Origin: Hyphomonadaceae bacterium
Lineage (GTDB): Bacteria > Pseudomonadota > Alphaproteobacteria > Caulobacterales > Maricaulaceae
Length of the DNA: 44,972 bases
Assembly: GCA_013001295.1 (NCBI GenBank)
Contig: JABDMW010000016.1
Span: forward strand, 1 to 44,972
Direction: 5' to 3'
The notes beneath the pieces were generated by a model. That model worked only from the letters and a program-made list of their open reading frames with translations, made no database searches and was not told where the DNA came from. A program made the translations under genes and the position numbers. This document shows positions 1,301-38,440 of the stretch, in pieces (position 1 is the first letter of the stretch; each line of letters opens with the position of its first letter).

Positions 1301-1375
1301 GCCCTCTTCCCTTCGATCTCATTAGACACACCAAAGTCTTGGTGATAGGCTCGCCTCAATAACAGGGGGCGTCCA

Positions 1376-2188
1376 TTGTTACTTCGCAGTATGACTAAGC
1401 ACGTGCGTGACCAGAACTGGTTTGCGGTTTTCCTCGATTTCTTGATCGTGGTGGTCGGCATTTTGATCGCGTTCCAGATTACCAACTGGAATGAAGCGCG
1501 CAGTGATGCCCGTCGCGGCCACGCCTATGTGGATCGGCTGATCATTGAGATAGAGAAGGACTTAACGAATCTCCAAGGCCTCCTCGCTTATTATGATGCG
1601 GTCAATGCAAGTGCTGAACGCACGGTTGAACTATTGTCTCAACCTGCACCGAAACCGGAAAAACTGATTATCCACGCATACCGTGCAACCGAATATTCAA
1701 ATTTTAAAGCCAGGCGAGCAACATGGGATGAGATCGTATCTTCGGGCAATATGGAGTTATTGCCACCAGTTATCACAGAAAACTCTCTCTCGGGCTATTA
1801 TGATTATGGAGACACGGGCCTTAAACTCCAGGGACGAATGCTCGATTCTGATTATCGAAAACGTGTCCGCCGCATAATACCTCACAAAATTCAACATTCT
1901 ATTCGTCGTTGCGGAGACAAGGTCCCACATGACCAAGACGCGCCCGCGCTTTCAATTGATTGCGATATGGATGCCACAGAGTCAGAGTTGGTGGATATCG
2001 CGGCACTACTCAAAAATGATCCGGAGCTCCTTCGAGACCTGCGATATCAGTTTTCAATCTTAGGAGTGATACGCGGGGACCTTCAGAGTCTCATAGACGG
2101 TAATCTTTATGGAAAAAACCTTTCGCTGGAAGAGCTCATTCAAGCCCTCAAAGAAAGTCGATCCGATTCAGGTAGAGAGGCTCGCTAA
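1376..2188 (+). CDS. DUF6090 family membrane protein, copy A
   Basis: 270 residues, starting at TTG 1376, which aligns exactly with the ATG of the other copies; AGGGGG at 1364-1369 is the ribosome site. Residues 1-16 (MLLRSMTKHVRDQNWF) are the conserved family leader, followed by one membrane helix (about 17-38, FLIVVVGILIAFQITNW) and N-W-N-E-A. The remainder is a helical, largely soluble domain with a few Cys. The family has no known function and is typically present as tandem paralogs in marine alphaproteobacteria. The stop overlaps the next leader's ATG as TAATG. It is the first member of the first array block. Confidence 0.85.
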   Translation: MLLRSMTKHVRDQNWFAVFLDFLIVVVGILIAFQITNWNEARSDARRGHAYVDRLIIEIEKDLTNLQGLLAYYDAVNASAERTVELLSQPAPKPEKLIIHAYRATEYSNFKARRATWDEIVSSGNMELLPPVITENSLSGYYDYGDTGLKLQGRMLDSDYRKRVRRIIPHKIQHSIRRCGDKVPHDQDAPALSIDCDMDATESELVDIAALLKNDPELLRDLRYQFSILGVIRGDLQSLIDGNLYGKNLSLEELIQALKESRSDSGREAR

Positions 2189-2421
2189 TGCTCGTCTGCT
2201 CTCTAACGAAACATGTCAAAGACCAAAACTGGTTCACCGTCGCGACACCACCCACCTTCCGCTCACCCCCGCGGCGGCGGGGGTCCATTTGGAATGCTGC
2301 GACTAGCAGAGTGTTCAGGCCACCAAACCTCGGTGATATTTTAATATCTAAAATCGATCCCGTCCCGAGCGTTTCTCTCGAAACGCATCGACGGGACAAT
2401 CGGATTGGGGGAATGTCCTAA
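2188..2421 (+). CDS. DUF6090 leader fused to palindromic element (unit B)
   Basis: The frame starts in TAATG after copy A and encodes 77 residues. Residues 1-16 (MLVCSLTKHVKDQNWF) match the DUF6090 leader. The membrane helix and body are missing; instead the frame runs through a palindromic repeat (left hairpin 2266-2283, right hairpin near 2360-2395). It stays open to a TAA that overlaps the next leader ATG, again as TAATG. GGGGGAA before that ATG can serve as ribosome site. The unit is 233 bp, the same as units F and I. It may be a translated 77-aa peptide or simply a coupling relic; the peptide part from the repeat looks non-globular. Confidence 0.55.
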   Translation: MLVCSLTKHVKDQNWFTVATPPTFRSPPRRRGSIWNAATSRVFRPPNLGDILISKIDPVPSVSLETHRRDNRIGGMS

Positions 2422-2486
2422 TGCTCATCCGCTCCCTGACAAAACACGTGAAAGGCCAGGAACCAATCATAAGGAAATACCCATGA
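2421..2486 (+). CDS. DUF6090-type leader peptide before hydrolase (unit C, 21 aa)
   Basis: MLIRSLTKHVKGQ, the first 13 codons of a DUF6090 gene, starts in TAATG at the end of unit B. It then diverges and stops after 21 residues. Its TGA (2484-2486) overlaps the hydrolase ATG (2483) as ATGA, so ribosomes finishing this peptide can restart on the hydrolase. AAGGAAA at 2471-2477 also gives the hydrolase its own ribosome site. The peptide therefore acts as a coupled upstream ORF made from a recycled gene start. Confidence 0.5.
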   Translation: MLIRSLTKHVKGQEPIIRKYP

Positions 2487-3394
2487 AAATGAAATTGATT
2501 TTAGCCCTGCTTTTAACGTCGTTTGTACTGACCGGGTGCGCCACGCCGGCGGCCAACTCATCATCTGTCGCCGACCGGGATCCTTTGCAAATCGATACGG
2601 CCCACCCGCCTGCCTTGGCCGCGCTTAATTTTGACAGCTATGGGGATCGGATCAACGGGATTTTGTATCAGGCGAATGGCGCCGGCCCGCACCCGACAGT
2701 GATTTTGCTGCATGGCTATCCGGGCAATGAGAAAAACCTCGATTTGGCCCAGTCCCTGCGGCGGGCAGGCTACAATGTATTATTCTTTCACTATCGTGGG
2801 GCATGGGGTAGCAGTGGCGAATTTTCCCTTACCCATGTTATCGAAGATGTTGGCAGCGCAGCGGATTTCCTGCGCAAAAATGCGAATGAATATCGCGTTG
2901 ACCAAGACCGCCTTTTGATTATCGGACATTCCATGGGCGGGTTTGCCGCCTTGCAAGGCGCCGCTCGCGATGAGGCCATAACGTGTGTGGCCGCTATTGC
3001 ACCGGCTGATGTCGGACTTATCGCCGCACGTTTTTTGGAAGCGGACGCCGAATTAGCACAGCGCTCCGCGGCCAGAGCGGACACACTGACCATGTTAAAC
3101 GGGTGGTCGGGGGAAAAAATGATCGCTGAGCGACAGGCCAATCGCGATGCCTTCAGCCTCATTGATCTGGCGCCAAATTTGGCGGGTAAATCTGTGCTGT
3201 TGATCGCGGGCGATAGAGATTCTGTGCTTGCACCGGACATATTCCACACGCCTCTGGTCGCGGCCTATGCCAACCAACCCAACATCACTTTGGCCCACGC
3301 TGTAATCCCCGGCGATCACGCATTCTCGTGGTCACGGTTTGAACTCACGGACACAGTTCTGGACTGGGCACAATCGTGCAAGCCAACCCCATGA
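2483..3394 (+). CDS. Alpha/beta hydrolase, predicted lipoprotein
   Basis: 303 residues. ATG 2483 was chosen because it follows AAGGAAA and opens a lipoprotein signal with lipobox LTGC (Cys19); the frame is open upstream but that part is array sequence. Oxyanion-type HGYPG lies at 77-81, nucleophile elbow GHSMGG at 148-153 (Ser150), acid Asp in GDRDSV (Asp244 or Asp246) and His279 in GDHAF. The family resembles dienelactone hydrolase or dipeptidyl-peptidase-like esterases; the substrate is unknown. Expected place: anchored to the outer or inner membrane, facing the periplasm. It sits between DUF6090 leader C upstream and leader D downstream, each joined by an ATGA overlap, as if inserted into the leader array. 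Confidence 0.8.
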   Translation: MKMKLILALLLTSFVLTGCATPAANSSSVADRDPLQIDTAHPPALAALNFDSYGDRINGILYQANGAGPHPTVILLHGYPGNEKNLDLAQSLRRAGYNVLFFHYRGAWGSSGEFSLTHVIEDVGSAADFLRKNANEYRVDQDRLLIIGHSMGGFAALQGAARDEAITCVAAIAPADVGLIAARFLEADAELAQRSAARADTLTMLNGWSGEKMIAERQANRDAFSLIDLAPNLAGKSVLLIAGDRDSVLAPDIFHTPLVAAYANQPNITLAHAVIPGDHAFSWSRFELTDTVLDWAQSCKPTP

Positions 3395-3498
3395 TACTGC
3401 GTTCCATTACAAAAAACGCGCGTGACCAAAATTGGTTCGCCGTTTTTTCCACCTCTACCATGGAGAGAGGTCGCGCTCCCGTAGGGAGTTGCGGGTGA
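3391..3498 (+). CDS. DUF6090 leader remnant after hydrolase (unit D)
   Basis: ATG 3391 overlaps the hydrolase TGA as ATGA. The first 19 codons (MILRSITKNARDQNWFAVF) are a DUF6090 leader. The frame then enters a different palindromic repeat and stops after 35 residues. The membrane helix and body are absent, so this cannot be a functional family member. It is the fourth leader of the first array block. Confidence 0.5.
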   Translation: MILRSITKNARDQNWFAVFSTSTMERGRAPVGSCG

Positions 3499-3588
3499 GG
3501 GGCAATTTTTGCAATGAAGTTGGTTAGAATGCGTTATTGCGAGTAATATCCCCTCACCTCAATCCTCTCCCCAGAGGAGAGGAAGCGT
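3449..3588 (+). repeat. Palindromic repeat, CCTCTCC/CCCTCACC type
   Basis: The left part has the hairpin-like CCTCTACCATGGAGAGAGG, then GGGTGAGGGG. The right part carries CCCCTCACC and CCTCTCCCCAGAGGAGAGG in inverted order. The two halves are inverted repeats about 50 bp apart, as in bipartite interspersed palindromes of proteobacteria. It starts inside leader unit D, at the position where other units carry a different repeat family. From 3589 to 3686 there is AT-rich sequence that probably holds the promoter of the glutathione transferase gene. Confidence 0.65.
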
Positions 3589-3686
3589 TGTTTCAAGTTC
3601 AGCTCTTCAATAAGCTAAAATTTATGTGACAACACAAATAAAAGAATTTGCTTGCCTAACCGCAAACACAGGCAGATATTCAGCAC

Positions 3687-4328
3687 ATGTTAACTGTACA
3701 TCATTTGAACAATTCGAGGTCGCAACGGGTACTTTGGCTCTTGGAAGAGCTCGATCTCGACTATGATATCAAACACTATGAGCGCGATCCGAAAACAAGA
3801 CGCGCACCCCCGTCCCTGAAAGCGGTTCACCCGTTGGGCCGCGCACCCGTCATAACTTATGGCGATAAAACCATTGCAGAAACCGGTGCCATTATCGAAT
3901 ATGTCATTCGCGAGCACGGCAATGGAAAATTGATCCCGAAAGCCGGTACAGAAGCCTTTGAAGAATATGTACAATTTCTGCATTATGCCGAAGGCTCTGT
4001 GATGTTTCCGATGCTATTGGCTCTATATACCGGCTTGTTGGGAGATGCCGCCGCACCGATCCAGCCGATCATTGCCAAAGAAATGAAAGTGCATTTCGAC
4101 TTTATTGAATATCACCTGACGCGCAAAAATTATTTTGCCGGAGAGGAGCTATCCGGCGCGGACATTCAGATGGTGTTCCCGCTCGAATCCGCCAAAAAGC
4201 ATGGACGTCTTAAGGGCTATGACGCCTGTATCGATTTCGTTAACCGGATGCAGGCCCGTCCTGCCTATCTGCGGGCGTTAAAACGGGGCGGCCATTACGA
4301 TTACGGCCCGGCAATCGACAATGGCTGA
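3687..4328 (+). CDS. Glutathione S-transferase family protein
   Basis: 213 residues. The thioredoxin-like N-domain (1-80) has the glutathione-site residues NNSRSQR (Ser10/Ser12 are candidates for the catalytic Ser), the cis-Pro at APV (Pro54) and ETG (65-67), which binds the gamma-glutamyl group. The all-helical C-domain has the N-capping motif [11 protein letters not shown]. It is a cytosolic enzyme expected to conjugate or isomerise electrophiles using glutathione. It overlaps the next gene by 8 bases (4321-4328), so the pair is an operon, and a VOC partner fits a detoxification role. Confidence 0.88.
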
Positions 4329-4743
4329 CTTACCGCCTTTTCACCTCGCGGCCCCCATCAAAGATAAAGAACAAACGCGGTCGTTTTACGCCGATCTCTT
4401 AAACTGTACGACCGGTCGCGAAGCCGATACCTGGATCGATTTCGATTTCTTCGGGCATCAACTCTCCTTCCACGTCAAACCGGAAGCCTTTGCCACCGAA
4501 GCCACCAACAAAGTCGATGGAAAAGACGTCCCTGTCCGGCATTTCGGGGCTATATTACCCTGGGACGAATGGCATCAGCTGGCAGACAGATTGAGAAATC
4601 ACAATATCGACTTTATCATTGATCCTTATATCCGCTTTGAAGGGGAAATAGGCGAACAAGCAACCATGTTTTTCACGGATCCCAGCGGAAACGCACTCGA
4701 ATTTAAGTCCTTTAAAAATCCGGATTCGATCTTTCAGTCTTGA
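4321..4743 (+). CDS. VOC (glyoxalase/bleomycin-resistance) family protein
   Basis: 140 residues with two beta-alpha-beta-beta-beta modules. Candidate metal ligands are His8 (PFHLA), His74 (PVRHFG) and Glu127 (GNALEFKSF), the last in the typical D-P-x-G-N-x-x-E-F ending. This resembles VOC dioxygenases or lyases rather than true GloA, and the substrate is unknown. It starts inside the glutathione transferase gene and is thus translationally coupled to it; a glutathione adduct as substrate is possible but not shown. The following 124 bases up to pckA are AT-rich and probably carry its promoter. Confidence 0.8.
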
Positions 4744-4867
4744 TTTTAAACAATTTAACAGAATTTTCTGTCAATTGAGCCTTTAAACTTTTCCAAAAAT
4801 TGGTATGACAGATTTATTCCAGACCGAATCTACAATTAATCACATGTGAAACTGAAAAGGACGCCCT

Positions 4868-6463
4868 ATGAGCACTCCAGATAACACACGCGAATTGAAT
4901 ATCCCCGGCTTTGAGGGTTTAAGCAATTTTCACTGGAACTGGAGCCCAGCCCGTCTTTATGAATGCGCAATCGAACGCGGCGAAGGTAAAGTCGCCAAAG
5001 GCGGCCCGCTTGTTGTCAAAACAGGTAAACATACGGGACGCTCAGCCACGGATAAATTCGTTGTCCGGGATGAAGAAACAGAAAACACCGTCTGGTGGGA
5101 AGGCAATGCGTCGATGACTTCGGCGCATTTTGGCGCTTTAAGAGAAGATTTCGCCAAGCATATGAAAGATATGGAACTTTTTGCAGCCGACACATTTGGC
5201 GGAGCTGATCTTGATCACCGCCTGCCCGTGCAAATTGTCACCGAATTTGCCTGGCACGGCCTGTTTGTGCACCATCTCCTCCGCATTCCCAAAGGCGACG
5301 ACCTGACAAACTTCGCACCGGAATTCACAATCATCAACCTGCCGAGCTTCCGCGCCGACCCGGCCCGTCACGGCACCAAATCGGAAACCGTGATCGCGGT
5401 CAATATGAGCGAACGCCTGGTCCTGATCGGCGGCACATCATACGCCGGCGAAACCAAGAAGTCGGTGTTCAGCATTCTCAACTATTTACTGCCGGAAAAG
5501 CGCGTCATGCCGATGCATTGTTCGGTCAATGTTGACAATAATGACAATGCCGCCGTGTTCTTCGGCCTGTCCGGCACCGGCAAAACCACCCTGTCCGCCA
5601 ACCCCGACCGCACATTGATCGGTGATGATGAGCACGGCTGGTCTGAAAACGGCCTGTTTAACTTCGAAGGCGGCTGTTACGCCAAAATGATCAATCTGTC
5701 GGAAAAGGCAGAGCCCGAGATCTTCGCCACTACCAAGATGTGGGGAACCGTTCTTGAAAACGTTGTTATGGACGAAGAATCCCGCGAGCTCGATTTCAAC
5801 GACAACAGCCTGGCCGAAAACAGCCGCGGCGCCTATGGCCTGTCCGCCATTCCAAACGCCAGCCTGACCGGCAAATGCGGCCAGCCCAACAATATCATCA
5901 TGCTGACGGCCGATGCGTTTGGTGTCCTGCCGCCGATTGCACGCCTGACCCCGTCACAGGCCATGTACCACTTCCTGTCCGGCTATACGGCAAAGGTCGC
6001 CGGCACAGAAAAAGGCGTCACAGAGCCGACAGCGACCTTCTCAGCCTGTTTTGGCGCACCTTTCATGCCTAGACACCCGGTTGTCTACGGCGAGCTTCTG
6101 CGCGATCTGATCGCCGAGCACAAAGTCGGCTGCTGGCTGGTCAATACCGGCTGGACTGGCGGCACTTATGGTGTCGGGTCGCGCATGCCGATCAAGGCTA
6201 CGCGCGCCATGCTCAATGCGGCGCTCGACGGCAGTCTCAATCAGGCCCAGTTCCGCATGGATAAAAACTTCGGCTTTGAAGTGCCAGTGTCAATTCCGGG
6301 CATTGACGACGCTTTGTTCGATCCGCGCTCGACCTGGGCAGATGGCAATGCCTATGACGCCCAGGCCCAGAAACTGGTCTCGATGTTCATCGACAACTTC
6401 GCCAAGTTCGAAAGCCACGTCACGGACGACGTCAAACAAGCCGCCCCGGTTAAGGCTGCGTAA
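4868..6463 (+). CDS. pckA: Phosphoenolpyruvate carboxykinase (ATP)
   Basis: 531 residues, the usual length of ATP-dependent PEP carboxykinase. It converts oxaloacetate and ATP to PEP, CO2 and ADP, the entry step of gluconeogenesis, in the cytosol. Visible motifs are [13 protein letters not shown] (51-64), [10 protein letters not shown] (192-201, with the catalytic Lys), the P-loop GLSGTGKT (233-240) and the metal-binding DDEHGW (253-258). AAAAGGA lies just before the ATG. It stands alone, with an AT-rich upstream region. No clear terminator follows: 6464-6611 has no strong hairpin and no gene, and leads into the leader array. Confidence 0.97.
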
Positions 6464-6611
6464 GGCCAGTAGAAGCTCATTATTTCAAGTGGTTCCCGCT
6501 CGAAGTTCAAGCTTCACGGCGCCTACACCCCTGCCCGATTGCCAGTTTTGAATCCACTGGACACATATGCGAAAAGCCTTATGTTGAAAAACAGGGGGAT
6601 ACGGGCGCACA

Positions 6612-6776
6612 ATGTTACTTCGGAGCATTACCAAACACACAAAAAATCCCGTCATTGTCGGGCCTGTCCCGGCAATCCAACTCGGATGTTTTCCGTCGCA
6701 ATTCAGGAAGTTGGTAAGACCAGAGTTGGATTACCCACATAAAGTGGGTAATGACGGTTTTGGAGGAATGACCTAA
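6612..6776 (+). CDS. DUF6090 leader fused to second-type palindrome (unit E)
   Basis: This is the first unit of the second array block, with an ACAGGGGG ribosome site (6591-6598) like the one before copy A. MLLRSITKHTK matches the leader but breaks off after codon 11. It continues through a palindrome of another family (CGTCATTG...CGGCAATCC / GGATTACC...GTAATGACGG). The frame stays open for 54 residues to TAATG at 6774-6778, with GGAGGAATG before the next start. A near-identical palindrome follows leader M at 11.25 kb. Confidence 0.5.
   Translation: MLLRSITKHTKNPVIVGPVPAIQLGCFPSQFRKLVRPELDYPHKVGNDGFGGMT
6649..6763 (+). repeat. Palindromic repeat, CGTCATTG/CGGCAATCC type (copy 1)
   Basis: The left arm is CGTCATTGTCGGGCCTGTCC followed by CGGCAATCCAACTC. 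The right arm is GAGTTGGATTACCC then GTGGGTAATGACGG, the inverted counterpart. About 40 bases lie between the arms. The copy at 11257-11365 differs at only a few positions. It lies inside leader unit E. Confidence 0.7.
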
Positions 6777-7009
6777 TGCTCCTCCGTTCCCTCACAAAAC
6801 ACGTGAAAGACCAGAACTGGTTTGCGATGGCAACACGCCCCTCCTCCCGATCACCCGAGCGTTTCACTGAAACGCGTGGTTGGCGAACGGGGCCCATCTG
6901 GAATGTCTCGGCTTGCAGGGTGTTATGTCCATCAAACCTCGGTAAAACATTAATATCTAAGACGAATCCCGTCCTCCGACGGGACGAGCGGATTGGGGAA
7001 ATGTCCTAA
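6776..7009 (+). CDS. DUF6090 leader fused to palindromic element (unit F)
   Basis: 77 codons, 233-bp unit. MLLRSLTKHVKDQNWF matches the leader; codons 18 onward run through the GATCACCC-type palindrome. The left arm carries a nested hairpin, GCGTTTC-ACT-GAAACGC. The right hairpin is CCCGTC-CTCC-GACGGG at 6968-6983. The frame ends in TAATG shared with full gene G. It lies between unit E and the intact copy G, so it is an upstream coupled frame for a real gene. Confidence 0.55.
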   Translation: MLLRSLTKHVKDQNWFAMATRPSSRSPERFTETRGWRTGPIWNVSACRVLCPSNLGKTLISKTNPVLRRDERIGEMS

Positions 7010-7779
7010 TGCTCCTCCGTTCCATCACAAAACACGTGCGTGATCAAAACTGGTTCGCGGTGTTTCTCGACTTTTTCATCGTCGTGGCCGGTATCCTCAT
7101 CGCGTTTCAGATCACCAATTGGAATGATGCGCGAAAAGAGGAACAAGCCGCGAGAGTTTATGTCGAGCGCATTCGCGATGATCTGATGGCCAATAGAGAG
7201 GATTTGCAACAGCGGGCTATATATTTTTCACAAACCAGAGATCACGCACTGTCAGCGTTAGCTGCGCTTGATCGACCTCCGGAAACATTGGGCAAAGATT
7301 TTCTCATTGATGTTTATCAGGCAACCCAAGCTCTGCCGAGAACATTTGGGCGCGATACCTATGACGAGATTATCTCAGCGGGCGAAACAAATACAATTAC
7401 CGATACATCGATCAGAAAAATGTTCGCTAATTTCTATCGGGGCATCGAAGCGCCTCTGGCAATCCTCTCACAAACGGTTCATTATCGGGAGATTATTCGT
7501 TCCAAGATGCCATATAAAACTCAAGCAGCGATCCGTGCGGATTGTGCGGAAAGTTCGACTATTAATGCAGCTGGTGAACCCATAATCTCATTTCCGGATA
7601 AGTGCGAAATTGATCTGGATATGAAGGAGACACTGAAATCGGTCTCAGCGATCATTGATGCTGATATTCGAGACGCTCTTGTTCGGCGCATCTCCGACTT
7701 GGACAACAAAATCGTCATGTCGCGACGTATCATAGAGCGTGCAGAAGCGCTCGACGCTCACCTCGAGGAGAGACTCTAA
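7009..7779 (+). CDS. DUF6090 family membrane protein, copy G
   Basis: 256 residues. Leader MLLRSITKHVRDQNWF, membrane helix about 18-38 (FFIVVAGILIAFQITNWN), then a helical domain containing NANREDLQQ-like coiled stretches and a few Cys (CAES, KCEID). It is the only intact gene in the second array block, with body-less leader units E and F before it and H to K after it. Start and stop are both in TAATG overlaps, so its translation should depend on the flow of ribosomes from the preceding units. Function is unknown, as for copy A, with which it shares the leader strongly and the body weakly. Confidence 0.85.
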   Translation: MLLRSITKHVRDQNWFAVFLDFFIVVAGILIAFQITNWNDARKEEQAARVYVERIRDDLMANREDLQQRAIYFSQTRDHALSALAALDRPPETLGKDFLIDVYQATQALPRTFGRDTYDEIISAGETNTITDTSIRKMFANFYRGIEAPLAILSQTVHYREIIRSKMPYKTQAAIRADCAESSTINAAGEPIISFPDKCEIDLDMKETLKSVSAIIDADIRDALVRRISDLDNKIVMSRRIIERAEALDAHLEERL

Positions 7780-7991
7780 TGCTGCTGCGCTCCATAACAA
7801 AACATGTTAAAGACCAGAACTGGTTTGCGGTGGCGACACCACCCACTTTCCGATCACCCCGTCGAAGGACGGGGCCCACCTGGAATGTCTCGGCTTGCGT
7901 GATGTTACGTCCATCAAAGCTCAGTAAACTTTTAACATCTAAATGGATCCCGGCCGTCGCCGGGACGATCGGAATTACGGGGTTTCAATAA
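7779..7991 (+). CDS. DUF6090 leader fused to palindromic element (unit H)
   Basis: 70 codons, 212-bp unit, starting in TAATG after copy G. MLLRSITKHVKDQNWFAV is followed by the GATCACCC-type element with two simple tetraloop hairpins: CCCCGTC-GAAG-GACGGGG at 7857-7874 and CCCGGC-CGTC-GCCGGG at 7949-7964. The nested GCGTTTC hairpin is absent, which accounts for the 20-bp shorter length. It ends in TAATG. Its internal sequence is nearly identical to unit L at 11 kb. Confidence 0.5.
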   Translation: MLLRSITKHVKDQNWFAVATPPTFRSPRRRTGPTWNVSACVMLRPSKLSKLLTSKWIPAVAGTIGITGFQ

Positions 7992-8224
7992 TGCTTCTCC
8001 GCTCCCTGACAAAACACGACAAAGACCAAAACTGCTTCGCGGTGCCAGCGCCACCCACTTTCCGATCACTCGAGCGTTTCACTGAAACGCGTGGTCGCAG
8101 GACGGGGCCCATCTGGAATGTCTCGGCTAGCGAAGTGATTTGCCTTTCAAACCTCGGTGAAACTTTAACATCTAAGATGGATCCCCGTCTTCACGGGGAT
8201 CAGCGGATTGGGGGAATGCCCTAA
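7991..8224 (+). CDS. DUF6090 leader fused to palindromic element (unit I)
   Basis: 77 codons, 233-bp unit. The leader MLLRSLTKHDKDQNCF has two unusual changes (V to D, W to C), as expected if the peptide is not under strong protein-level selection. The left arm carries the nested GCGTTTC/GAAACGC hairpin. The right hairpin is CCCCGT-CTTC-ACGGGG at 8183-8198. It ends in TAATG at unit J. Confidence 0.5.
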   Translation: MLLRSLTKHDKDQNCFAVPAPPTFRSLERFTETRGRRTGPIWNVSASEVICLSNLGETLTSKMDPRLHGDQRIGGMP

Positions 8225-8358
8225 TGCTGCTCCGCTCCATAACAAAACACGTGCGTGACCAGAACTGGTTTGCGGTGACGACACTACCAACCTTCCGTTC
8301 ACCCCCGCGGAGGCGGGGCCCAACTGGAATGTCTCGGCCAGCGAAGCGTAAGGCCTAA
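8224..8358 (+). CDS. DUF6090 leader with frame-broken element (unit J)
   Basis: MLLRSITKHVRDQNWFAV is intact. A one-base change in the element shifts the frame, so translation ends at 8358 after 44 codons instead of reaching the end of the unit. The whole 232-bp unit still continues to TAATG at 8454-8458. The left hairpin is CCCCGC-GGAG-GCGGGG at 8303-8318; the right arm carries the nested hairpin. The frame loss argues that the peptide part after the leader is not essential. Confidence 0.4.
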   Translation: MLLRSITKHVRDQNWFAVTTLPTFRSPPRRRGPTGMSRPAKRKA

Positions 8359-8455
8359 CAAACTTCGGTGATACTTTAACATCTAAGATGGATCCCGGCC
8401 CGAGCGTTTCTTTCGAAACGCATGGCCGGGACATTCGGATGGGAGGGATAACCTA

Positions 8456-8515
8456 ATGTTCCTGCTCTCCATTACAAAAATACGTGAAAGCCGCATCGAT
8501 TGGCGGTGGAGCTAA
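8456..8515 (+). pseudogene. Decayed DUF6090 leader (unit K)
   Basis: MFLLSITKIRES still resembles the leader, but a one-base insertion (AAAAATACGTG) shifts the frame and it ends after 19 codons. It is the last unit of the second block and abuts the minus-strand protease fragment. Confidence 0.45.
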
Positions 8516-8519
8516 CATT

Positions 8520-8701
8520 TTACTGGCTCGCCCTTAGGGCCGCGATGCGGTCGTCCAGGGAGGGATGGGTTGCGAATAAGCCACCGAGCTTTGATTTAAA
8601 GTTCGGCGAAATCCCCATGGCCGCCATGCCGTCCGGCAGTGCATTGTGCTGACTGATCGGGTTTTTAAGCCGCTCTAGCGACGCCGCCATGGCCTCATGT
8701 G
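8520..8701 (-). pseudogene. C-terminal fragment of an M48 (HtpX-like) protease
   Basis: The minus-strand frame ending at TAA 8520-8522 encodes about 60 residues, including LERLKNPISQHNALPDGMAA and GGLFATHPSLDDRIAALR. The L-F-A/S-T-H-P-x-x-D/E-x-R-I motif is the typical C-terminus of HtpX and related membrane M48 peptidases. The HEXXH active site and membrane helices are missing. Upstream the frame runs straight into the 3' end of the propeller sensor gene (junction near 8701-8705). This is therefore a rearrangement scar, not a gene. Confidence 0.6.
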
Positions 8702-8704
8702 AAA

Positions 8705-10849
8705 TCAGTCGCGAACGAGAATATCCACCAAGGCCCGGGGCTCTCCCAAACCTGCGACAGAAGAATATAAACAAACTTCGAGTCTGTATCCCCCGCGTGG
8801 CAGCGAGGTGTAAGAAATTGGACCAATCGGTTTTAAGGTAGACCATTCTTTGTCAAAGCCAATTAACCTATAGCGCATTTTGCAATTATCTTCGTTTAAA
8901 TACCAACAATTCCTGATTTCAACGTCGAACCGCCATTTTCCGGTACCTACAACATATAGATTTTCCTTCTTTCTCGGTTCTACCTGATGCCATTTTATTC
9001 GAGCCAATTCCGCGACGGGCCTCTTGTTGAAGTTCATTAACTTGTTAACGTTGATTGTCTTTAATCCAGTTGAAACACCACAAAAAGCATTACCCTGATT
9101 GTCGATATGCAGAGACCGGCTACAGGTGAATTCCCAATTGCTGGTATCCGAATTTATTGACACACGTTTCAGACGTTCGCGCGTTTGGCAATCATAGATC
9201 ACAAACCCATCCGATGTGCCGAGTGCCAGTTTATCGTCGTTTAAAATTTTAAGTGACCACCCGGATACGGATTCGCGGGTATTGATAAAAAGGGTCGGCA
9301 GCCCGTCATCTCCGATCCTGGAAATATATCCGTCATGACAAAAATATAAGGATCCCGATGATGTATGAGCGAGCGCATAGACATTGCTTTTACGGTTGAT
9401 CGAACCGCCTAAAACACTTTTAATCAGATGGTTTTTTTCGAGATGCCAAAGCCCCGCGCCCAATGTTGCTACCCATAGGTTCCCATCTGGACCCGTATGA
9501 AGAGAGTAGACGTAACCAAGGCTTTTTCCACTGGGCCGAAAGATCTCTTGCGGGCCATCGGGTCCAAATTTTACAAGTCCTTTCGTCGTGCCGACATATA
9601 AATAGCCATGACACAGTTCGATTGCCCGACACGGGGCTGCGAGGGCCTCTATTTGATAATCGGCGGCAAGAGCAGTTCCTTGATCCAATCGAGACGACGG
9701 GATTTGGAAAAATCCCTGCTGAGTTGCAGCCCAAATTGTTCCGCGCGCGTCTTCGAATGCATCCCAAATTGTTTTACCTTTTAAAACCGTGCGCTGGTTA
9801 GGTAAAAGCAATCCGTTTGCGCCACCGATGAGTTTACCTGATCGACATTGCCGTATACAGAAAACAGCACCTAAATTTTCGGTGTGATGCGATTTAAGGA
9901 AATGACGCATACCACTTACACGAACAATGCCAATATTGTCAGTGGATACCCATATATTTTTATATTCATCAGAAATCACATTTCTGACCAACGTGTCCTT
10001 TAAGACCCTCTCCTTAAATTGCAATGCGTTGCCTGCGATTTGAATCGTGACAAGATCGTCGCCGACACCCAACCAAATAAGCTCATCGCACCAATGTATC
10101 GCCGTTACCGGTTTACGCGTCTCTAAAGTGTATGAGATTTCTCCAGCAGCCGTCAAGACGGCCACGCCATAATCGCAACCCACCAGAATGTTATTGTGCG
10201 GACCTCGGGCTAAATAGATCGGATTTCCGATCTTCTGAATTGCTTTTACGTTTATGACATCCCAGTTGTTTTGCTTTAATCGCGCCACGCCGAATTTCGA
10301 ACCCGCTACCCAGATATCGCCCGCCTCGTCAACCAATGTTGAGGTGATTCTTGTGTTGCGAAAAAAAGGTGTTTGGTCTTGTTCGATCGTGACATCATCA
10401 ATTATTCTATAAATGCCATTGGGCGTGCCGATTATCCCCCCATCTTTGAAAACCGCAATACTGTCAACAATGCCAATACGAAAAAATCGTTTCGATATCG
10501 GTGCGGTTCCGCTTATATCAAGGATCTCAACACCTGCATCCGAACCAAGCCACAAGGTCTGATTTGCGCCAAGTACAAGGGCTCTCAGCCCATGGCAATT
10601 AAGTCCGTTTTTGAGCCCAAACAAGCGGATGCTAACGCCATCATAACACAGCAATCCAACCGGAGACGCGCTCCAAACCCGTCCATCTTCAGAAATAATG
10701 GATTGGTGGATTTGGGACGAACGGACACCCTTTTTTCGTCCAAAGTAATCAATCGGAAAGGGCGTTACCGGGACATCGGAAAAGTCTAACGCCGACCTCT
10801 GAATCTCGTCTGAAATTAAAGATAAGTTCTGCATGTGTCCCATCCGCAC
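8705..10849 (-). CDS. Beta-propeller sensor (Reg_prop repeats plus Y_Y_Y), output domain missing
   Basis: 714 residues from GTG 10849; ATG 10843 or 10834 are equally possible. Repeats of the two-component propeller type recur along the protein: GRVWSASPVGLLCYDG, LWLGSDAGVEIL, IWVAGSKFGVARL, IWVSTDNIGIVRV, IWAATQQGFFQI, LYVGTTKGLVKFG and LWVATLGAGLWHL. They are followed by a Y_Y_Y-type beta-sandwich (about 640-714, MRYRLIGFDKEWS). Relatives are periplasmic sensors that go on to a membrane helix and a kinase or GGDEF domain. Here the frame stops after the sandwich, next to a protease fragment, and no signal peptide is visible. Both ends thus look trimmed, so it may be a non-functional relic or a soluble ligand-binding remnant. 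Confidence 0.7.
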   Translation of the reverse strand: MRMGHMQNLSLISDEIQRSALDFSDVPVTPFPIDYFGRKKGVRSSQIHQSIISEDGRVWSASPVGLLCYDGVSIRLFGLKNGLNCHGLRALVLGANQTLWLGSDAGVEILDISGTAPISKRFFRIGIVDSIAVFKDGGIIGTPNGIYRIIDDVTIEQDQTPFFRNTRITSTLVDEAGDIWVAGSKFGVARLKQNNWDVINVKAIQKIGNPIYLARGPHNNILVGCDYGVAVLTAAGEISYTLETRKPVTAIHWCDELIWLGVGDDLVTIQIAGNALQFKERVLKDTLVRNVISDEYKNIWVSTDNIGIVRVSGMRHFLKSHHTENLGAVFCIRQCRSGKLIGGANGLLLPNQRTVLKGKTIWDAFEDARGTIWAATQQGFFQIPSSRLDQGTALAADYQIEALAAPCRAIELCHGYLYVGTTKGLVKFGPDGPQEIFRPSGKSLGYVYSLHTGPDGNLWVATLGAGLWHLEKNHLIKSVLGGSINRKSNVYALAHTSSGSLYFCHDGYISRIGDDGLPTLFINTRESVSGWSLKILNDDKLALGTSDGFVIYDCQTRERLKRVSINSDTSNWEFTCSRSLHIDNQGNAFCGVSTGLKTINVNKLMNFNKRPVAELARIKWHQVEPRKKENLYVVGTGKWRFDVEIRNCWYLNEDNCKMRYRLIGFDKEWSTLKPIGPISYTSLPRGGYRLEVCLYSSVAGLGEPRALVDILVRD

Positions 10850-10936
10850 ACAGCTTTTGTGCGTTTTTTGTGTTTATCGCACGCAACCTATAATATTTTG
10901 TTAGTTGACAGTGATAATGCAGGACTTTCGGGCGCC

Positions 10937-11002
10937 ATGCGCATCGAGCTGGAGGAAATTCTCGAGACCATAGTACCGCTGACGAAAGCTTCGGCCGAAT
11001 GA
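10937..11002 (+). pseudogene. Possible 3' gene fragment before leader L
   Basis: A frame with MRIELEEILETIVPLTKASA ends in TGA 11000-11002, overlapping leader L (ATG 10999) as ATGA. The short amphipathic helix looks protein-like and the overlap copies the array's coupling pattern, so it may be the tail of a lost upstream gene. Upstream of it the frame reads into unconvincing sequence. The parent gene is not recognised. Confidence 0.25.
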
Positions 11003-11199
11003 TCATTCAAAAGATCTTAGATACATTGCGTGACCAGAACTGGTTCGCGGTCGCACCACACCCCACCGGCCGATTGCCCCGTTGGCGAACGGGGTCTATC
11101 TGGAATGTCTCGGTTTGCGCGATGTTACGTCCATCAAAGCTCAGTAAACTTTTAACATCTAAAATGGATCCCGGCCGTCGCCGGGACGATCGGAATTAG
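10999..11199 (+). CDS. DUF6090 leader fused to palindromic element (unit L)
   Basis: 66 codons. The first half of the leader has diverged (MIIQKILDTL), but RDQNWFAVAPHP matches. The element is the 212-213-bp form: left hairpin CCCCGTT-GGCG-AACGGGG (11077-11094) and right CCCGGC-CGTC-GCCGGG. From about 11105 to 11197 it is almost identical to unit H, 3.2 kb away. The frame stops at TAG 11197-11199, just before the next leader at 11212. Confidence 0.45.
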   Translation: MIIQKILDTLRDQNWFAVAPHPTGRLPRWRTGSIWNVSVCAMLRPSKLSKLLTSKMDPGRRRDDRN

Positions 11200-11211
11200 G
11201 GGAATATACTT

Positions 11212-11365
11212 ATGCTCCTGCGCTTGCTCACAAAAACACTTCCCTCTATTCGTCATTGCCGGGTTTAGCCCGGCAATCCAACTCGGATGTTTTCCGTCGC
11301 AATTCATGAAGTTGGTTTGACCAGAGTTGGATTACCTTCATAAAGTGGGTAATGATGGTTTTAGT
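11212..11365 (+). repeat. DUF6090 leader start plus second-type palindrome (unit M)
   Basis: MLLRLLTKT (ATG 11212) is the start of a leader. After nine codons it changes into the CGTCATTG...CGGCAATCC palindrome and stops at a TAG within the first arm. The palindrome (about 11257-11362) is near-identical to that of unit E at 6.65 kb. No body follows; the minus-strand kinase gene ends 38 bases beyond. Confidence 0.6.
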
Positions 11366-38044: not shown

Positions 38045-38393
38045 GTCCCAGGTTAAAATCAGGACTCCCCTCTCTCCGCTCATCCCCGCGGCGGCGGGGA
38101 TCCATCTTAATGCCTCAGCACAACTGTATTATATTCAGCTAGGTACCGTCGCCTGAGAGATTCCAGATGGGCCCCGGCCGCCGCCGGGGTGATCGGAGGG
38201 GAGGAGGAATTGCGCCCCGTATTATTGGGAGACAGAATAGGTCCTCAGGTTGAGATCAGGACTCCCCTCATTCCGCTCATCCCCGCGGCGGCGGGGATCC
38301 ATCTTAATCTCGATATAAGTCGGTTTATCAATTGTAAGGCATTAATTTGGCGGAGACACCAAGATGAACCCCGTCCTCCGACGGGGTGATCGG
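38016..38393 (+). repeat. Tandem duplication of amidohydrolase 3' end plus palindromic element
   Basis: The last ~29 bases of the gene and the following ~65 bases (38016-38110) recur at 38212-38308 with about 90% identity (gcgcccc-tattattgggaga, then actcccctc...ccgctcatcc). Each is followed by the GATCACCC-type palindrome found in the DUF6090 units: element 1 at 38075-38197, element 2 at 38272-38393. Left arms are identical (CCCCGCGGCGGCGGGG). The right arms differ (CCCCGGCCGCCGCCGGGG; CCCCGTCCTCCGACGGGG), and the cores between the arms are unrelated. A third partial arm is at 38981-39000. Confidence 0.8.
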
Positions 38394-38440
38394 GAGGGGA
38401 AAAACAACTGCGTACACGTTTTGCAAAGTATCGGTTTTGA

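Follow-up and report, generated by a model that had tools for sequence, protein, structure and literature searches.

Palindrome-filled gene starts in coupled DUF6090 arrays of a Hyphomonadaceae genome as candidate ribosome relays

Introduction

Why would a genome keep the start of a gene, and the site that joins it to the next gene, where the gene body itself has been replaced? The question is raised by a 44,972-nt stretch of DNA from a marine Hyphomonadaceae bacterium (assembly GCA_013001295.1, contig JABDMW010000016.1; the whole stretch is referred to here as the window), in which an initial annotation had described an array of 13 short gene starts, or leaders, with only two gene bodies. All 13 leader starts were recovered at the positions described (1376, 2188, 2421, 3391, 6612, 6776, 7009, 7779, 7991, 8224, 8456, 10999 and 11212), and among the open reading frames (ORFs) of the window tested by Pfam profile match, full DUF6090 genes (PF19578; gathering cut-off 23.5 bits) begin at 1376 and 7009 alone (1376-2188, 270 aa, 30.9 bits; 7009-7779, 256 aa, 27.0 bits). 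Most other leaders run into palindromic sequence, nearly always of one of two families (P1 and P2), and we call these composite units stubs. From the sequences analysed here, we consider it likely that the stubs act as ribosome relays which keep termination-reinitiation coupling across lost genes, and that they have spread by leader-to-leader recombination.

The peptide M-L-L-R-S-x-T-K-H-V-x-D-Q-N-W-F, initially ascribed to every leader, holds for 10 of the 13, which score as MLLRSxTKHVxDQNWF-like starts, while the leaders at 6612, 8456 and 11212 retain about the first 8-10 codons only and were detected as members of DNA repeat family D4. The joints had been read correctly, with TAATG at eight starts (2188, 2421, 6776, 7009, 7779, 7991, 8224 and 8456) and ATGA at two places (the leader of unit C with the start of a hydrolase gene at 2483, and the hydrolase stop with the leader at 3391). 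One correction applies: the unit at 8224 (J) is broken, its frame stopping after 44 aa and 97 nt short of 8456, so that reading in frame no longer leads to the TAATG at 8456.

Leader arrays across the genome

The array is a real, genome-wide feature and is not local to the window. A degenerate leader pattern gave 26 matches in this genome and none for the reversed control pattern, which excludes chance, and matching units were also found on contigs C3, C12, C16, C24 and C40, with one further full gene on C19. The genome holds 13 DUF6090 matches (6 of the 13 over the Pfam cut-off; all 13 were counted as full genes) and about 26 leader-plus-palindrome stubs, 19 with P1, 6 with P2 and one, unit D of the window, with another palindrome. 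Apart from the single gene on C19, these form eight arrays, or seven with C12 and C3 taken together; the two contigs probably adjoin, because an identical 85-nt stretch within one P1 body lies at both contig ends.

Reading frames of internal and terminal stubs

Stubs with a full-length ORF further along the same array (DUF6090, or, for units B and C, the hydrolase) were defined as internal, irrespective of their own state, and all others as terminal. The terminal set comprised only stubs with a following leader (D, K, M, L024_3920, L027_4467 and the L028 9827 remnant were left out, and L028_10480 is a P1 body without a leader). We found that the internal stubs (B, C, E, F, L024_5239, L026_8013, L027_3309, L028_7055, L028_6819, L028_5846, L028_5638, L029_5449 and L029_5237) have a frame that stays open from the leader as far as the following start (13 of 13), with stop-to-start gaps of -4 to +4 nt, versus 3 of 9 terminal stubs (open: H, I and L027_4291; not open: J, L, L024_4332, L024_4153, L028_10268 and L028_10037; Fisher p 0.0011). 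The contig-edge stubs L025_387 and L025_175 are both open and would be internal if C12 joins C3, giving 15/15 (p 0.0006). The second palindrome family repeats the contrast, as P2 in the relay frame is stop-free in 3/3 alignable internal stubs versus stop-bearing in 8/8 dispersed copies (Fisher p 0.006). The distance from start to start leaves a remainder of 2, as TAATG and ATGA require, in all but one of the 13 internal stubs (12 of 13), the exception stopping 4 nt short of the start that follows. Insertions and deletions (indels) within stubs measure 21, 3, 9 and 30 nt, and in two stubs (H and L028_7055) single-base frameshifts have been compensated, L028_7055 reading P1 in another frame.

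Internal and terminal bodies are equally diverged, with mean differences from the 160-nt P1 consensus of 34.1 (nine internal bodies) and 32.8 (nine terminal bodies), so the openness of the internal ones is not due to youth; pairwise divergence among 19 P1 bodies averages 32%. By scattering over the P1 consensus, at random positions, as many substitutions as each copy has, we estimated a stop-free chance of 0.22 to 0.50 per internal body, corresponding to about 3 of 9 expected open versus 9 of 9 observed, and a product over the nine bodies of 4e-5 to 8e-5, or 1e-4 to 2e-4 with the two neighbouring L029 stubs counted once. For terminal P1 bodies the same procedure predicted 3.1 to 3.3 of 9 stop-free, and 4 of 9 were seen. 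In a tree-based simulation under three transition weights, 0, 3 and 3 of 4000 runs kept every one of the ten internal bodies open; both tests model substitutions, with indels left out. These results point to a frame selected where a gene follows (13/13 versus 3/9; neutral chance about 1e-4).

They also bear on the proposal that the array is a dead repeat relic, in which palindromes invaded a redundant tandem family that now stands at various stages of decay, with frames open by chance. The terminal and orphan units (J, K, L, M, the C16 tail, and 10268 and 10037 on C40) are plainly decaying, at neutral expectation, and sister arrays too end in short leader stubs; plain decay, one of the roles initially offered, therefore fits the terminal units but not the internal ones, which are as diverged and nevertheless open throughout. 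We regard a relic as unlikely for the array as a whole.

Coupled translation and its alternatives

The ribosome-relay reading would work as follows. The stop of each array gene overlaps the next start (TAATG or ATGA), and, judging by the joint type, downstream genes would be fed by reinitiation of the ribosome that has just terminated. P1 and P2 would once have taken the place of the gene body behind a start of 16-18 or of 8-10 codons, and recombination between leaders would then have copied these short cassettes between places and leaders; since leaders are alike and in one frame relative to the joint, such recombination would leave frame and joint unbroken (one stub pair carries its product, described below; for the others we infer it). 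A stub upstream of a working gene would be held open by selection for passage of ribosomes to the next start, and not for its peptide, while a stub with nothing working behind it would drift to stops and frameshifts. Stubs would in this way be natural leader cistrons that bridge the gap of a lost gene. The initial suggestion of coupled translation control of the two real genes comes close to this reading, with the stubs themselves as the putative relays.

Coupling has been reported to be strongly distance-dependent, with little of it left at about 20 nt, and in the two E. coli pairs tested there an upstream gene portion of 15 nt was enough (PMC10666635); in the H. volcanii pairs described, premature upstream stops prevented downstream translation (PMC6728339).

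Several observations weigh against stubs being relays. Three terminal stubs (H, I and L027_4291) are open as well, and L is borderline with a gap of 12 nt; if it is counted as open, the terminal fraction becomes 4/9 (p about 0.005, by hand). The internal stubs, with common ancestry and common arrays, are not fully independent of one another. The single standalone copy with the P1 spacer (L031, about 3958-4100) is also open across the element, which indicates that P1 is naturally friendly to the relay frame; in the wider control, 9 hairpin-like places outside arrays were inspected in 11 views, 4 of which lacked a stop in the element or the stretch shown, this copy included. Compared with synonymous shuffles, the 24 internal starts of the own genome are only slightly more closed (mean z -0.49, p 0.023), and the 112 of other genomes lean the opposite way (mean z +0.36). 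Finally, the need for an open frame could stem from avoidance of Rho polarity and not from reinitiation; these data do not tell them apart.

Array heads behave differently from internal starts in that they avoid start-site structure by their choice of synonymous codons, with positive z in 8/8 heads of the own genome (mean z +1.50, p 0.008) and in 27/36 heads of other genomes (mean z +0.74). The heads (window 1346-1376, 6582-6612 and other arrays) share a 5' region (..GGGG..GGGCGCACAATGTTACTTCG..) that is also present in heads of the named relatives and appears to be a conserved operon head. An anti-Shine-Dalgarno arrangement suggested by folding, with the leader codons CTCCTCC pairing with the Shine-Dalgarno sequence of their own start, was rejected as the mechanism; synonymous-shuffle results for it were mixed.

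A further explanation is that stubs are selected for avoidance of Rho polarity or as RNA devices, in which hairpins and leader tune transcription or downstream initiation and reinitiation is secondary. The structure-avoiding codons of the array heads would agree with it, and so would the hairpins themselves. P1 consists of two inverted hairpins and a spacer and belongs to a family dispersed through the genome; its hairpin arms covary, with 90.8% of cells paired and 44 cells changed on both sides versus 14.3 in shuffles (0/500 reach 44). However, dispersed copies outside arrays carry the same kind of hairpins, so that the pairing is a property of the element. Standalone twin hairpins of the P1 type occur as well, for instance two elements at window 38075-38400 (without assigned strand) that lie outside the DUF6090 arrays and have relay-frame stops in both orientations. 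Moreover, a second covariation measure, that of further pair types, was not raised over shuffles (272/500), z was at or below -2 in only 2 of 7 joint regions folded, and no Rfam family matched at gathering threshold in the window. We consider this explanation, in either form, quite unlikely to account for the stubs. As a separate observation, P1 bodies (e.g., window 6857-6877 and 2371-2391) may carry an extra hairpin tip (GAGCGTTTC..GAAACGC), which some copies have on the left hairpin and others on the right; it is always 21 nt long and therefore in frame.

Spread of stubs between leaders

The claim that bodies were replaced while start and joint were retained is borne out by three lines of evidence. 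Leader and body distances are uncorrelated among 17 stubs (Spearman 0.17; Mantel p 0.12, not significant, with leaders of only 52 nt). P1 bodies occur behind head-type, internal-type and MIFRR-type leaders, so that L027_3309 joins a P1 body to a head-type leader nearest to the heads of other arrays and L025_387 joins one to a MIFRR-type leader nearest to full MIFRR genes. Two neighbouring stubs of L029 have bodies 94% identical behind different leaders, and the leader of the second matches that of the full gene that comes next at 90% identity, not counting a 30-nt insertion. The L029 pair has the form expected if two leaders had crossed over unequally at the end that they share, a position at which frame and joint are kept by construction.

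The accompanying idea that the bodies stem from many independent events of different kinds was not sustained, as nearly every unit belongs to one of two palindrome families, each with a single junction (after about codon 18 for P1 and about codon 10 for P2). We find it improbable that a separate insertion of a mobile palindrome at a preferred leader site, and not leader recombination, gave rise to each stub. It is true that the palindrome families are dispersed, that the genome has one Y1_Tnp transposase gene (C19:13584) and that another palindrome follows codon 14 in the contig L096 of a metagenome-assembled genome (MAG). But most P1 stubs share not only the junction but also a linker (GCGACACCACCCAC) between leader and hairpin, which is absent from the dispersed copies viewed and speaks for one founding junction; full-length spacer-matched P1 copies are found almost exclusively in arrays; and the L029 pair needs only a crossover.

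Constraint on leaders and stub peptides

We compared nonsynonymous and synonymous change (dN/dS), as the initial annotation had proposed for the leaders, and found the leaders conserved, with values of 0.13 in full genes and 0.11 in internal stubs, and less conservation in terminal units (0.21). This conservation may be upheld by exchange with full genes. In the bodies, dN/dS was 0.60 for internal and 0.68 for terminal stubs and near 1 in the spacer; read from these values, it is the openness of a stub that is constrained and its peptide sequence little.

That stubs encode small functional proteins, like domesticated Rickettsia palindromic elements, is very unlikely in spite of the amino-acid conservation of internal-stub leaders, which can stem from the exchange just mentioned, since bodies evolve alike in internal and terminal stubs, the peptides given by P1, P2 and the MAG palindrome are unrelated and L028_7055 uses yet another frame of P1, H matched no Pfam family (it was the only stub scanned, other stub bodies being palindrome sequence), and PHROGs gave no match for H or E, nor for the full gene G.

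Arrays in relatives and an independent case

The comparison with sister genomes called for in the initial annotation revealed the same stop-start-coupled arrays with bodies nearly always intact, including in MAGs labelled Robiginitomaculum, Hellea and Henriciella. Loci of other genomes contain 176 leaders (deduplicated), of which 154 head full-length ORFs of at least 180 aa; 133 of these 154 end in a stop/start overlap (98 ATGA, 19 TAATG, 8 TGATG and 8 GTGA). The remaining 22 short leader units are mostly array ends or broken genes, L096 being the exception. Judged from these loci, coupled tandem arrays with a constant leader are ordinary for the DUF6090 family and the palindrome-filled stubs are the derived state, as the relatives have coupled arrays in which bodies are so rarely lost.

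L096 is a 3,090-base contig (QIKQ01000242.1) of a MAG labelled Gammaproteobacteria, and its arrangement is like that of the own genome: the end of an ORF is followed by a 52-aa stub (a TCATTGCGAGG palindrome behind the leader), after 4 nt a full gene (256 aa; assigned to the family by its leader, not by domain scan) and a second such stub at the end. The palindrome is of a third kind, distinct from P1 and P2. L096 thus appears to be an independent case of the relay arrangement, although it is a single case and the binning of the contig could be wrong.

A DNA search for the palindrome-plus-leader unit matched 20 of 41 genomes (the own genome included), and outside the own genome the matches were leaders or hairpin halves only, of at most 63 nt. 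Among 398 genomes of the order, a gapped leader-to-leader pattern matched 2, G245 and the own genome, the latter at 6 places (5 stubs and one chance match on C6); as only 5 own stubs were recovered, absence in the other genomes is weak evidence. A pattern with a shorter gap had no matches and also missed the known P2 stubs of the own genome, and is hence uninformative. The G245 unit (L129), a leader with a fourth palindrome after a full DUF6090 gene, was rejected as a relay: its frame continues past a second leader instead of ending where the next gene starts, which makes it, from its sequence, a composite without the relay property.

A broader generalisation, which we put forward tentatively and hold at somewhat less than an even chance, is that stop-start-coupled tandem arrays are recombination platforms with a constant leader, in which any short stop-free filler may replace a body and be held purely as a ribosome relay. 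Selfish palindromes would then survive by being readable, and unrelated bacteria would have arrived at this independently with unrelated palindromes. If so, there would be a class of protein-coding sequence selected solely for being open and in register.

Relation to known systems

The initial statement that no such array had been described holds for DUF6090, for which a literature search by name found none, and the search found nothing on such palindrome stubs in coupled arrays; it does not hold for mobile repeats carrying a coupling mini-ORF, which have been described as mycobacterial interspersed repetitive units (MIRUs; PMC12548453). In the account given there, a MIRU is a mobile unit that inserts at start codons, and its short ORF is coupled to the following gene via a stop/start overlap and delivers the ribosome (Supply et al. 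1997 as cited in PMC12548453). Compared by this described working, MIRUs are the closest known kind, and each of the 13 internal stubs is likewise a short ORF whose stop lies at most a few nt from the start that follows. The differences are that the mini-ORF here is a chimera of the host family's leader and a palindrome, in place of a lost body, that joints are mostly TAATG, that spread follows leader homology and that unrelated palindromes occupy the same role.

Rickettsia palindromic elements, described as palindromic repeats of about 150 bp read in frame within protein-coding genes (PMC10969869), extend a protein that retains its body, whereas the stubs have frame and joint only; a palindrome in frame inside an otherwise complete gene was not found, the body being missing in the stubs examined. 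The bicistronic design of synthetic biology, mentioned in PMC12548453, likewise has a short leader cistron that delivers the ribosome to a gene start, but it is engineered, and the stubs are natural, repeated and derived from gene loss. The full genes at 1376 and 7009 belong to Pfam DUF6090, and stubs have none of the domain. REP, BIME, REPIN and MITE repeats are inverted hairpins dispersed in genomes, a description that P1 shares. REPINs consist of paired REP hairpins mobilised by a RAYT (Y1) transposase; twin hairpins are present in P1 and the genome has its one Y1_Tnp gene, and we have not filed P1 as a REPIN.

As repeat-borne coupling mini-ORFs, a kind already known, the stubs would be a variety with a within-genome contrast that makes the relay idea testable. 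If stubs are relays, these arrays would offer a natural test bed for termination-reinitiation coupling, with more than a dozen mini-ORFs of divergent peptides held open beside decaying controls in the same genome. They would also show how gene loss within a coupled operon is tolerated, warn that conserved openness of a small ORF need not imply a functional small protein, and represent a niche where palindromic repeats spread harmlessly.

Units of the window and neighbouring elements

All units of the window lie on the plus strand. The first array is headed by the full 270-aa gene A (1376-2188; TTG start), whose stop overlaps the next start as TAATG. It is followed by B (2188-2421), an internal putative relay of leader and P1 twin-hairpin body, open over 77 aa and joined by TAATG to C. 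C (2421-2486) is a leader remnant, open over 21 aa, with an ATGA overlap with the start of the 303-aa alpha/beta-hydrolase gene (2483-3394), which has a lipoprotein-like signal peptide and stands at the end of the B-C chain. D (3391-3498; leader and a CCTCTCCCC-type palindrome, 35 aa) is terminal, without a further leader. A leader stub ATGA-coupled to an unrelated gene was seen both here (the lipoprotein hydrolase, window 2421-2486) and, by eye, before a permease-like gene in the relative G008 (L071 997-881).

The second array begins with E (6612-6776), an array-head leader with a P2 palindrome, open over 54 aa, followed by F (6776-7009; leader and P1, open over 77 aa), which leads to the full 256-aa gene G (7009-7779); E and F are internal putative relays with TAATG joints. 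Behind G no full gene follows H (7779-7991; leader and P1, open over 70 aa, a 1-nt deletion compensated downstream) or I (7991-8224; leader and P1, open over 77 aa). The broken P1 stub J (8224-8456) is terminal, and the array ends with the decayed leader K (8456-8515). An orphan array without a full gene consists of L (10999-11199), a leader with replaced 5' part and P1 whose stop lies 12 nt before the next leader, and M (11212-11362), a leader remnant with a P2 90% identical to that of E, its frame closed after 18 aa.

Between these two array remnants, the minus strand at window 8705-10849 encodes a propeller-type sensor protein (Reg_prop, Y_Y_Y) without a kinase part. Elsewhere in the genome, intergenic P1-like and P2 elements are dense in L030 and L031 (C40:12000-43000), a region that apparently includes prophage-like genes.

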